From Candidatus Accumulibacter sp. ACC003 (lineage in GTDB: Bacteria > Pseudomonadota > Gammaproteobacteria > Burkholderiales > Rhodocyclaceae), in contig NZ_CAJQTX010000009.1 of assembly GCF_907163085.1 (NCBI RefSeq), positions 434,001 to 498,000 of the forward strand: 64,000 nt of DNA, in the 5' to 3' direction. Made by a program: the position numbers and the translations under genes. The notes below the pieces were generated by a model, which worked only from the letters and a program-made list of their open reading frames with translations, ran no database searches and was not told the DNA's origin. Each line of letters starts with the position of its first letter. Within the stretch, counting starts at the first letter, position 1. Below, one piece after another: positions 1,597 through 58,805 of this stretch.

Positions 1597-3075
1597 CTAG
1601 CTGCCGCTCTTCTTTTTCTCCTTCTCTTCGTCCATCTGCCGCTTGCGCAATTCACGGAGCCGCGCGTCCACCTGCGACTGTTCGAAGAAATTGCCGTCAC
1701 CGGCCTGTTGAGCGTACTGCAGTTGTTCGACAGCAGGGGCCAACTGCCCGAGCAGCAGATACGACTCAGCCTGCGCACGGTGCTGTTGCAAGCGCTTACC
1801 GAGCGCTGCGAAGGTCTTGGCTTGCAGAGCGTAGAGCTTGTAATCCGAGCTGTACAGCTGCAGCTGCGAGTCGATGAAGCGCAAACCCTCCTGGTATTGC
1901 CGGCCGTCAAGGAGCGCTTCGGCGTAGCCGTAAACCAGGGCTTTGGACTGCGGATAGCGCTGCAGCGCATTGCGGTAGATCGTCAGCGCGCCCGCCCGAT
2001 CACCACCAGCGGCCCTGATCTCGGCGGCCAGGCCGGCAATCATCGGCGACGACGGCTTCAGAGCCAGCAGCGCGTCGATCTCCTTTTGTGCAGCCGCGGC
2101 GTCTTTGGCGCGCAGCAGCGCGTACGCCAGACCGTAACGAGTAGCCGCCTCGGAGGCCGTCTTCTTTTCCCGTAGCTGCCTGCGAAACTCACTGATCTTT
2201 TCGCCGGGCGTGCCTGCTTGTGCCCGCAGCTTGGCGCGCACCAGGTGAAAGTCGAGACTATCGGCGACTTGTCGATAAGGGGCGCTCTGGGCGCGGCTCT
2301 CCATGTCCGACATCCGCTCGACGGTCAGCGGGTGCGAGCGCATATAGACTGGCGCGTTGTTCTCGTACAGGCGCCCTGCCTGCTGCAGGCGCCCGAAAAA
2401 ATCGCCCATCCCGTGTACGTCGTAGCCGGCTTTGCTCATCGTCTGAAACCCGACGCGGTCGGCCTCGCGCTCGAAATCGCGGCTGTAGGCCAATTGTGCC
2501 TGAATCGACCCGGCCTGTGCCGAGGCGATCGCCGCACTCGCTACCTGCGAGTTGGAACGGGCAGCCAGAACGCCTACCGCCATGGTGATCATCGTCGCGA
2601 TCGAGCTCTGTTTCTCCCTGGCGATCTGCCGGGCCAGGTGACTCTGCGTCACATGCGAGATCTCGTGAGCCAACACGCCGGCCAGTTCGGACTCCGATTG
2701 CGCGGTAAGCAGCGTCCCGGTGTTTACCCCGATGAAGCCGCCGAACATCGCAAAAGCATTGATGGCATTGTCGCGAATCACGAAGAACCGAAAGTCACCC
2801 GCCGGGTTCGAACTGGCGGCCACCAGTCGCCCACCGAGAAGATTGACGTAGTCCGTAACGTCCGGATCGTCGACATAGCTGCTCTCGTGCAGGCGGATGT
2901 CATTGAAGATGCGCTGCCCGATCTGATACTCGAGTTGCGGCGAGAAATCGGCGCGCGCGGCGTCACCGAGTTCAGGCAATTCGTCGGCGAGAAGCGACGA
3001 AGAACTGCCTAGGGAAACAGCGATCGCCAAAGAGACAGCTGCACAAGTGACTCTAATCAAGGGAACCTCCGGCAC
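1597..3075 (-). CDS. bepA: BepA/YfgC-like periplasmic M48 metalloprotease with TPR domain
   Basis: Exported zinc protease of 492 residues. A hydrophobic signal sequence covers about residues 5-30. The zinc motif HEISH is at 137-141 and the downstream EREAD motif near 202-206, as in M48 peptidases. The C-terminal half (about 290-480) is helical and repeat-like, consistent with TPRs. In the known family, BepA degrades or assists stalled outer-membrane proteins such as LptD and works with the BAM complex. The C-terminus is short and Lys/Glu-rich. It is divergent from moaC and convergent with the transposase. Orthology to bepA rather than another M48-TPR paralogue is inferred from length and layout. 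Confidence 0.87.
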   Translation of the reverse strand: MPEVPLIRVTCAAVSLAIAVSLGSSSSLLADELPELGDAARADFSPQLEYQIGQRIFNDIRLHESSYVDDPDVTDYVNLLGGRLVAASSNPAGDFRFFVIRDNAINAFAMFGGFIGVNTGTLLTAQSESELAGVLAHEISHVTQSHLARQIAREKQSSIATMITMAVGVLAARSNSQVASAAIASAQAGSIQAQLAYSRDFEREADRVGFQTMSKAGYDVHGMGDFFGRLQQAGRLYENNAPVYMRSHPLTVERMSDMESRAQSAPYRQVADSLDFHLVRAKLRAQAGTPGEKISEFRRQLREKKTASEAATRYGLAYALLRAKDAAAAQKEIDALLALKPSSPMIAGLAAEIRAAGGDRAGALTIYRNALQRYPQSKALVYGYAEALLDGRQYQEGLRFIDSQLQLYSSDYKLYALQAKTFAALGKRLQQHRAQAESYLLLGQLAPAVEQLQYAQQAGDGNFFEQSQVDARLRELRKRQMDEEKEKKKSGS

Positions 3076-8277: not shown

Positions 8278-8404
8278 ACGGTCATGACAGGTCGAGATAC
8301 CCCAGATCATGAAAGTCATGACCCTTTCCCTCTTCCCCTGGCCCTTCTCCCGCAAGGGGAGACGGGAGTTTCGTGAGTCGCGTACGCGACTTTCACATTA
8401 AAGA
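8278..8404 (+). repeat. Dispersed composite palindromic element, copy R1
   Basis: Two modules. Outer part (8279-8330) resembles bases 35964-36015 read on the other strand at about three quarters of positions by eye. Then a CTCCCGC..GGGGAG hairpin near 8345-8365. Then the core GTGAGTCGCGTACGCGAC at 8373-8390 followed by TTTCACATTA; AGTCGCGTACGCGACT (8376-8391) is a perfect palindrome. Located about 95 bases upstream of the helicase gene and in its orientation. The rest of 8197-8497 holds no gene that I can support. Confidence 0.7.
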
Positions 8405-26680: not shown

Positions 26681-26712
26681 TCGTGAGTCGCGGCGGCGAC
26701 CAGGCGTAAGGT
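26681..26712 (+). repeat. Dispersed palindromic element, partial copy R4
   Basis: TTCGTGAGTCGCGGCGGCGAC matches the core of copies at 8373 and 46115, and TAAGGT (26707-26712) occupies the end position. The upstream hairpin module is not visible. Located 50 bases upstream of the DUF1223 start and in the same orientation. Confidence 0.5.
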
Positions 26713-26761
26713 TTTCAGCGCGCCGGACGACCATCGGTCAAACAACCTTCAGGAGAAAGCA

Positions 26762-35814: not shown

Positions 35815-36015
35815 ACCTTACCGTGAAGATCGCGTGCGCGACTCACAAATGTCCCTTCTCGTCGCTGGCGACGAGAAGGGGGTGAGACGGGAAATTCAGA
35901 GCACATGCGCCCTGCCCGTCGAACGATTCCGGCGTGCACGCCGGAATGCGCGCTGCAAGTGGTGGGAGACTCTCATGGCTTCCATGATCGAGGGTGTCTC
36001 GACAGGTCACGACCG
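35815..36015 (-). repeat. Dispersed composite palindromic element, fullest copy R2
   Basis: Read on the minus strand it holds: outer module (35964-36015, like R1); a perfect 22-base palindrome ATTCCGGCGTGCACGCCGGAAT (35926-35947, also in R5); a 12-bp stem hairpin CCCTTCTCGTCG / CGACGAGAAGGG (35853-35880); the core GTGAGTCGCGCACGCGAT (35829-35846); then TTCACGG and TAAGGT (35815-35820). It points toward fur. Confidence 0.75.
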
Positions 36016-36185
36016 TCAGGCGGCAAAGGGCGTGGTTTTTTTCGGTTATGATATACCGTCGCCTGCGCTTGTGATGAACGGAAGCCAGAATGCCGTCACC
36101 GCCAATGTCGATCCGGCTGCCGGCGCGGGCTTCCTGTTGGGCAACGCTCGCCTCTATTGATCACTTACCACCATTTGACGAGAAC

Positions 36186-46106: not shown

Positions 46107-46199
46107 ATTCTAATGTGAAAGTCGCTTCCGCGACTGACGAATCTCGATTCTCCCCGCTGCGGGAGAAAGACCGGGGACGTCACCGATTGTCATGACCTT
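46107..46199 (-). repeat. Dispersed composite palindromic element, copy R3
   Basis: On the minus strand: GGTCATGACA near 46190, a CTCCCGC..GGGGAG hairpin (46157-46172), TTCGTCAGTCGCGGAAGCGAC (core), TTTCACAT and TAGAAT (46107-46112). It points at yhbY, whose ATG is 27 bases on. Confidence 0.7.
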
Positions 46200-58412: not shown

Positions 58413-58666
58413 GTCCCATCTCCTGTGCAGTATTGGTAGAGGATTCAAGAAGTCGATGCAGCAAAGTGAAAAAGAACCCGGTGTTCGCGGCCCCCGCATG
58501 GCGGCAGACAGATAATAACGCTCGCGGGGCACCGGCTGTCACGACAACAGCCGAGGATTAAACGCTGCCAATCTTACACACCACTTACGCCAGCGCCGTG
58601 CCGCACGCCCGCCATCGGCATTTCTCTGCAACTGCAGGTGATCACCGATTCGCGCACTCGCCGTGC
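58413..58666 (-). other. Upstream region of acs, divergent from yqhA
   Basis: About 250 bases of leader, with the acs promoter somewhere inside. No convincing boxes recognised and no ORF. Confidence 0.35.
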
Positions 58667-58805
58667 GCATTCCGGCTTGCACGCCGGCATCGTTCGACCG
58701 GCATGGTGCATGCTTGCTGAATTTCCCGACGCATTCGATACCCCTTGTTCTCGAGCGGGGAAAAGGGCGATCAGCGCGTTGCGGACGCGACTTTCACGGT
58801 AAAAT
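58667..58805 (+). repeat. Dispersed composite palindromic element, copy R5
   Basis: Contains GCATTCCGGCTTGCACGCCGGCAT (the palindrome of R2 with two changes, 58667-58690), GTTCGACCGGCA..GCTGAATTTCCCG (as in R2 read on its strand), then a short hairpin TTCTCGAGCGGGGAA, then GTTGCGGACGCGACTTTCACGG and TAAAAT (58800-58805). Points at yqhA, ATG 33 bases further. Confidence 0.7.

Follow-up and report, generated by a model that had tools for sequence, protein, structure and literature searches.

A mobile repeat of Candidatus Accumulibacter and the host signals at which it probably inserts

Introduction

Accumulibacter species are the phosphate-removing bacteria of sewage treatment, and to our knowledge no pure culture of them exists. 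A window of 64,000 nucleotides from one genome of this genus (G000:C9:434001-498000; G000 comprises 5.39 Mb in 13 contigs), i.e. the whole stretch of DNA that was analysed, contains five related repeats that lie before five unrelated genes. In a preliminary description it was proposed that these repeats, which seemed to end in a -10-like TAnnnT, represent a mobile promoter or a 5' UTR element. The locus thereby raises the question of what kind of element the repeat is, and whether its promoter-like ends belong to the repeat or to the genes that follow it. The reading that we arrived at, and to which we assign a probability of about three in four, is that the repeat constitutes a family of short non-coding mobile elements that insert at host signals, that the -10 boxes at its ends are owned by the host, and that its preference for the sense orientation is brought about by selection. 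A search of the (mainly open-access) literature on palindromic, intergenic and MITE repeats of Accumulibacter, and on betaproteobacterial REPIN/RAYT systems, yielded no account of the repeat.

Results

Five copies in the window

All five places are present, each copy has the same direction as the following gene, and the gene names were confirmed by Pfam (UvrD/DEAD helicase, DUF1223, FUR, CRS1_YhbY and UPF0114). The places had been located correctly at the outset, but the elements are longer than originally drawn. The features are as follows.

8279..8401, + strand: young copy of the short form (123 b), lying 96 b ahead of the helicase gene and behind a left flank of CCTAA; it begins with CGGTCATGAC and ends with CACATTAA
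26621..26709, + strand: decayed, shortened copy of ~89 b; left flank GCTAG, right end without TTTCAC; before the DUF1223 gene
26706..26731, + strand: GTAAGG-N16-CGAC, host promoter-like motif of the DUF1223 gene, kept in relatives; its first block is the 'TAAGGT end' of the preliminary description
35818..36015, - strand: long-form copy of 198 b in the fur 5' leader; ends 9 b before the start codon
36040..36057, - strand: fur promoter-like block, GGTATATCATAACCGAAA in G000; GGTATATSATA in 25/25 relative loci
about 46110..46198, - strand: shortened copy of ~89 b at the yhbY -10 box; left boundary by eye
46107..46112, - strand: yhbY -10 box TAGAAT; TA[AG]AAT at the same place in 22/22 informative relatives without element
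about 58635..58802, + strand: old copy at the extended -10 of yqhA (UPF0114); left end decayed, boundary by eye
58800..58805, + strand: yqhA -10 box TAAAAT; TA[AG]AAT in 26/26 relative loci (24 distinct genes) without element

The core that the five copies were said to share, GTGAGTCGCG-N3-GCGAC, is exact at 8373+ and 26683+ but has one mismatch at fur and yhbY and three at yqhA (counted by eye). Similarly, the TTTCAC behind the core is exact at the helicase gene, yhbY and yqhA, but reads CTTCAC at fur and is absent at DUF1223 (CAGGCG). The helicase copy, which ends in TAAAGA, is a plain young copy. An Rfam scan of the 64-kb window at gathering thresholds gave 0 matches.

Form, ends and folding of the element

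The repeat comes in two sizes, a short form of ~123 b and a long form of ~200 b, and has the general layout CGGTCATGAC...GTGAGTCGC-N4-GCGACTTTCACATTAA with inverted repeats close to both ends. The left part of the unit consists of an inverted repeat (CGGTCATGAC...GTCATGACCG) and a C-rich stretch; a middle hairpin (CCCTTCTCCCGC-GGGGAGAAGGG) follows, and then, at the right end, TTC-GTGAGTCGC-N4-GCGACTTTCAC-ATTAA. The long form carries an additional block with the inverted repeats ATTCCGGC...GCCGGAAT and GGGAGC...GCTCCC (by eye). The ends are fixed across copies (CGGTCATGAC...CACATTAA), and one end is not the inverted repeat of the other. No canonical place for a guide tetranucleotide is left ahead of the left inverted repeat, whose first base is that of the element, and the right palindrome is preceded by TTTC, the GTAG-type foot of REP/BIME sequences being absent. 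TAnnnT is not a constant end of the element: the consensus 3' of TTTCAC is ATTAA, and the bases beyond it vary (99 copies).

When 39 diverse short copies are compared, two-sided changes that preserve pairing are found at three pairs of the middle hairpin (in 12, 8 and 2 sequences). The right hairpin is almost invariant in the same copies, so that covariation neither supports nor opposes its pairing, and the long left inverted repeat does not appear in their consensus fold. As a separate observation, a right end in locus L065 (core at 3031, - strand) is preceded by a direct-repeat run of CCCCTTCCCAAT, which lies ~100 b ahead of that core.

Abundance and spread

With the 28-b right-end pattern (up to 3 mismatches) 40 matches were recovered from the whole of G000 and 0 with the reversed control, while the short palindromic core gave 151 matches versus 42 for its control, many of them counted twice because the core is palindromic. 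Of the 61 genomes searched, which represent the genus, family and order, 24 have the 24-b core, and its reversed-pattern control gave 0 matches in all 61. Many of the copies are nearly identical, and they are found on both strands. At up to 2 mismatches, the number of copies per genome ranges from 0 to 302 across 28 Accumulibacter genomes, G000 included (302 in G022, 238 in G014, 163 in G009 and 63 in G000; zero in G001, G002, G012, G015 and G020), and outside the genus one of 33 genomes has the element, in 3 copies. Among the matches listed (80 of at least 114 stretches), the exact core occurs in Candidatus Accumulibacter phosphatis, contiguus, meliphilus, appositus, vicinus, iunctus and adiacens, and also in MAGs labelled Rhodocyclaceae STA_53 and Azoarcus CSMAG_1158.

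Mobility and target site

The repeat is a real, mobile element of Candidatus Accumulibacter: its mobility, which had been suspected from the window, is borne out by orthologous sites that are filled in one species and empty in a sister species. Filled in G000 and empty in named Accumulibacter loci are L024/L117, L058/L147 and L026/L139, and the opposite state is found at L048/L091, with a tandem pair, and at L030/L130 (some of these alignments are rough). In the L034/L111 gap (L034:2940-3240), G000 has a long-form copy and meliphilus a short-form copy in the opposite orientation, which suggests independent insertions in one gap.

The junctions could be read most precisely between G022 and G014, whose aligned blocks on one 171-kb contig are 91-96% alike and where 4 of the 10 junctions inspected are plain element insertions. 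Two of these pairs are clean, namely (a slash marking the junction) empty CTAG/CCGCGC versus filled CTAG/CGGTC...CACATTAA/CCGCGC, and empty CTTCA/AGGGAG versus filled CTTCA/CGG...CACATTAA/AGGGAG. In both, the empty site equals the joined flanks, with neither duplication nor loss. The remaining two fit by length; in each, two bases next to the junction are not the same in the empty allele as in the flanks of the filled one. Apart from these, G022 has a 638-b insertion (G022:C1:78911-79550, L248) that is absent from G014 and whose ends resemble, by eye, those of a small ORF-less group II intron.

Over 109 left ends (tandem ones excluded) the left flank reads GCTAA, with frequencies of.53 for G,.81 for C,.90 for T,.94 for A and.95 for A; the targets of the two clean pairs are CTAG and TTCA, not CTAA. 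Tandem copies are exact and run head to tail, with TTAA/CGG common to both and no base between; they can join in this way because the right end itself carries TTAA. Taken together, the junctions and flanks indicate that the element probably enters 3' of a CTAA-like target and does not duplicate it. At yhbY, where the right end and the host site both read TTAG, a duplication would give the same result. A TA-duplicating MITE had been our first impression, and it was dropped after the clean G022/G014 junctions without duplication.

Promoter-like ends in relatives without the element

The ownership of the promoter-like ends can be read from orthologous genes that have no element in front of them. 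For yhbY, none of 23 relative loci has an element within 330 b, and TA[AG]AAT is found in all 22 that have a usable start (L216 has none), at the position where the G000 element ends. For yqhA, none of the 26 relative loci (24 distinct genes) has an element within 400 b and all have TA[AG]AAT, which is preceded by TGC, as an extended -10, in every locus except one; loose core matches in L271 and L272, with 7 and 8 mismatches, were taken as chance. At the gene of L055, the relative L071, without element, reads CTAGAATGCC and G000 reads CACATTAAAATGCC, the -10 box being there in both. Since relatives without the element keep these boxes, the TAnnnT end at yhbY, yqhA and L055 is the host's.

For DUF1223 we compared 17 relative loci, of which three lack a usable start and one repeats another gene; GTAAG...CGAC is kept in 12 of the 13 distinct relative genes with an aligned start (by eye). 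L442 shows a weak core-like match with 3 mismatches, so the DUF1223 copy may be older than G000 and shared. The motif as such, GTAAG[GT]-N16-CGAC, stands before DUF1223 genes across Accumulibacter (window 26706-26731, loci L442-L453) and occurs once in the window. We take its GTAAGG-N16-CGAC form to resemble a promoter of the ECF-sigma (alternative-sigma) type, as a candidate only.

The fur gene has GGTATATSATA upstream in all 25 relative loci, none of which carries an element within 330 b; the G000 copy is situated between a block of this type and the ribosome site (AAGG), and ends 9 b short of the start codon. The block (window 36040-36057, loci L218-L242) forms an imperfect palindrome with the following bases and is perhaps the fur/bamE divergent promoter, or else an operator. 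Judged from these sequence comparisons, the ends at four of the five window places are host signals that contain or abut the target.

Over five locus groups, a strict -10 hexamer at the right end was found in 4 of 134 gene-facing copies (all four in G000) versus 0 of 150 others, and TAnnnT in 24 of 134 versus 10 of 150 (p 0.005), both counts being among the matches listed.

Orientation relative to genes

Genes were called with a simple coding-score script, not a standard annotator. G000 was surveyed in ~0.55 Mb chosen around matches, and copies from other genomes are those among the matches listed, which are biased to good ones. In G000, 87 non-tandem copies were classified: the right end points toward a gene start in 52 and toward a gene end in 26, and 9 are inside genes. 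Between co-oriented genes the sense:antisense ratio is 102:54 (305 non-tandem copies, among the matches listed).

For finer resolution by position we used 110 full-length intergenic copies (among the matches listed), selected from 326 collected by dropping those that were tandem, in genes or without a recognisable left end. In the 30 b next to a start codon the ratio is 27:5, and this is where the excess is significant; it is not so at larger distances (16:8 and 18:12), at stop codons (31:21) or up to 100 b beyond these (22:15). As these distance bins were chosen after the data had been seen, fresh copies were taken from G009, G023, G026, G004, G011 and G003. The fresh set is small (25 kept of 69 by the same criteria, with 7 instead of 6 left-end mismatches allowed); a single control match was encountered, in G023. 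Among the matches listed, the fresh set gave 8:1 near starts, 2:3 and 3:5 further out, 7:2 at stop codons and 6:4 beyond them. For the two sets combined, the ratio near starts is 35:6 (p 5e-6). Right ends peak 10-20 b before start codons.

What had been described as a uniform orientation is thus a real bias, and the five window copies are all sense, but it is local and far from absolute (52:26 in G000, with 9 copies in genes); in the surveyed stretches, both orientations and copies inside genes are seen, yet gene starts are favoured. The bias between co-oriented genes fades with divergence (29:9 for young, 44:20 for middle and 29:25 for old copies, the old class including chance matches because up to 5 core mismatches were allowed), whereas no such fading is seen near start codons (6:2, 17:3 and 4:0 for young, middle and remaining copies). 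A growth of the bias with age through host selection was considered, and the trend in this respect is mixed. The density of oriented targets was rejected as a cause, since CTAA occurs 56 times sense and 63 times antisense in co-oriented gaps.

Predicted folding of the leaders offers another cause. For 47 copies (a set that includes tandem copies and is not identical to the 35 near-start sense copies) the mean unpaired probability of the ribosome-site window is 0.47 as found and 0.37 with the element reversed (p 0.003). The leader as found is more open than the reversed one in 30 of 47 cases, and with the element removed the value is 0.49 (p 0.45). The folding suggests that reversed copies would hide the ribosome-binding site; as they are less open at that site, selection against reversed copies is the cause that we prefer.

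Search for a mobilising enzyme

In the stretches examined, no mobilising enzyme was found. Matches to the Y1 transposase family (PF01797) number 58; 25 of the 28 Accumulibacter genomes have them, with no relation to the number of element copies (judged by eye), and the single match of G000 has an internal stop. The neighbourhood of 28 of the 58 was inspected, and one of these genes has an element within 500 b, on one side. That copy is in G014 (contig C82, L303, 4238-4361), ~40 b downstream of the stop codon of this genome's sole Y1 match. In the stretches examined no Y1 TnpA element with the repeat's own ends was seen, and left ends without a near right end, followed up at nine G000 places and the other examined loci, revealed no long autonomous copy; of the nine unpaired left ends in G000, three have a decayed right end and six are truncated. 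IS200/IS605 elements favour the lagging strand. On the chromosome of G010, whose GC skew is noisy, a permutation test that is independent of GC skew detected no replication-strand bias (p 0.81; 100 of 112 copies).

Discussion

The observations are consistent with an element that would be moved in trans by an enzyme acting on hairpin ends much as the IS200/IS605/REP (HUH) transposases do. In this GC-rich genome, YTA[AG] is met in -10 boxes, beside Shine-Dalgarno sequences and at stop codons, and because the target lies at such host signals, copies end exactly there and leave the downstream half intact. In the sense orientation the right end would leave AUUAA and an open ribosome site, which the left hairpin of a reversed copy would hide, and selection on this difference is the likeliest cause of the bias.

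Both functions proposed in the preliminary description can be weighed against this reading. If the repeat were a mobile promoter, its right end would supply a -35 and part of a -10 box and drive the following gene, and one would expect right ends to face gene starts (as they do in G000, 52:26) and TAnnnT to be commoner at gene-facing right ends (24/134 vs 10/150, p 0.005, among the matches listed). The -10 boxes at yhbY, yqhA and L055, however, exist in relatives without the element there, a strict -10 is found in only 4/134 gene-facing copies, no -35-like hexamer stands at the right distance (by eye), and many right ends are 9-15 b from the start codon, too near for a promoter plus a ribosome site; we therefore consider a mobile promoter very improbable. 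A functional RNA element of the 5' leader, e.g. a riboregulator or mRNA stabiliser recruited by host genes, would account for the accumulation of right ends 10-20 b upstream of start codons, with its strong sense bias, for the persistence of that bias in diverged copies (17:3 and 4:0), for the covarying middle hairpin and for its presence at fur and other core genes. Such recruitment is nonetheless unlikely, as no informative relative has the element in front of fur, yhbY or yqhA, 52 of the 110 full-length copies abut stop codons versus 32 within 30 b of starts, the overall bias weakens from young to old copies, and the window has no Rfam match. The 5' UTR proposal consequently holds as to the location of some copies (fur, and the peak before start codons), but there is no sign of selection for being there.

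The mode of insertion has its own alternatives. Correia elements are usually assigned to the IS630/mariner-type MITEs, and for a MITE of this type, with TA duplication, speaks that most copies have TA at both junctions; two lengths and a promoter-proximal placement are moreover shared with Correia elements (PMC2649163). Yet the ends of the repeat are not mutual inverted repeats, two clean pairs are without TA duplication and one of their targets is entirely without TA, and the left flank favours CTAA, with tandems sharing TTAA and no base between, which makes this assignment quite unlikely. A more far-reaching idea, which we regard as rather improbable too, is that the element inserts into DNA that transcription makes single-stranded, namely the non-template strand at the -10 bubble and at the leader, and would thus read active promoters and rewire genes, yhbY and yqhA among them. 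If true, such entry would explain the exact -10 insertions as well as the sense orientation near gene starts, and the insertion would split the -10 of such genes from its native upstream half and substitute element sequence for it.

Insertion at host signals by a short non-coding element, the reading that we prefer, has consequences of its own. It adds a high-copy mobile repeat to Accumulibacter, small non-autonomous repeats near genes being a known kind. The exact insertions in -10 boxes, leaders and stop codons, some of them of core genes, amount to a natural experiment on promoter tolerance, and they illustrate that a promoter-like end can belong to the target site and not to the repeat.

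Comparison with known systems

Three known systems invite comparison. IS200/IS605 elements are characterized, in PMC7290912 and PMC6006769, by the lack of inverted-repeat ends and of target duplication, by insertion 3' of a fixed tetra- or pentanucleotide and by hairpins near the ends. Their ends-only relatives (PATEs) have these traits, with palindromes near both ends, and are thought to move in trans (PMC7290912). The Accumulibacter repeat is like them in its ends, the missing duplication, the insertion 3' of a fixed short target and the palindromes near the ends. Unlike in those elements, no full IS with these ends is present in the stretches examined, G010 shows no strand bias and the left repeat starts at base 1. 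Given an IS200/IS605-like signature, but no element at 27 of the 28 Y1 genes examined, no strand bias in G010 and no canonical guide place at the left end, we file the repeat as one that works like these elements, not as a proven member.

REPs, in the descriptions in PMC8266576 and PMC6006769, are 20-50 nt long, have a GTAG-type foot and often lie beside their own tnpA. The likeness to REP/BIME sequences with TnpA-REP is that of high-copy, lineage-specific, often tandem intergenic palindromes (same descriptions, PMC8266576 and PMC6006769), whereas the present repeat, compared with those descriptions, is a two-ended unit of 123 or 200 b without GTAG foot and with a linked gene at 1/28 Y1 genes.

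Nearest in effect are the Correia elements of Neisseria, for which PMC2649163 gives two main lengths, a -10 completed at the gene-near end and a copy between the promoter and the mtrCDE genes. Like the repeat they are small, non-coding and of two lengths, can abut a -10 and lie in mRNA, but they have inverted-repeat ends and duplicate their target. The decisive contrast concerns the promoter: insertion of a Correia element completes the element's partial -10 (PMC2649163), whereas the target of the Accumulibacter repeat already held the -10 box of the host.
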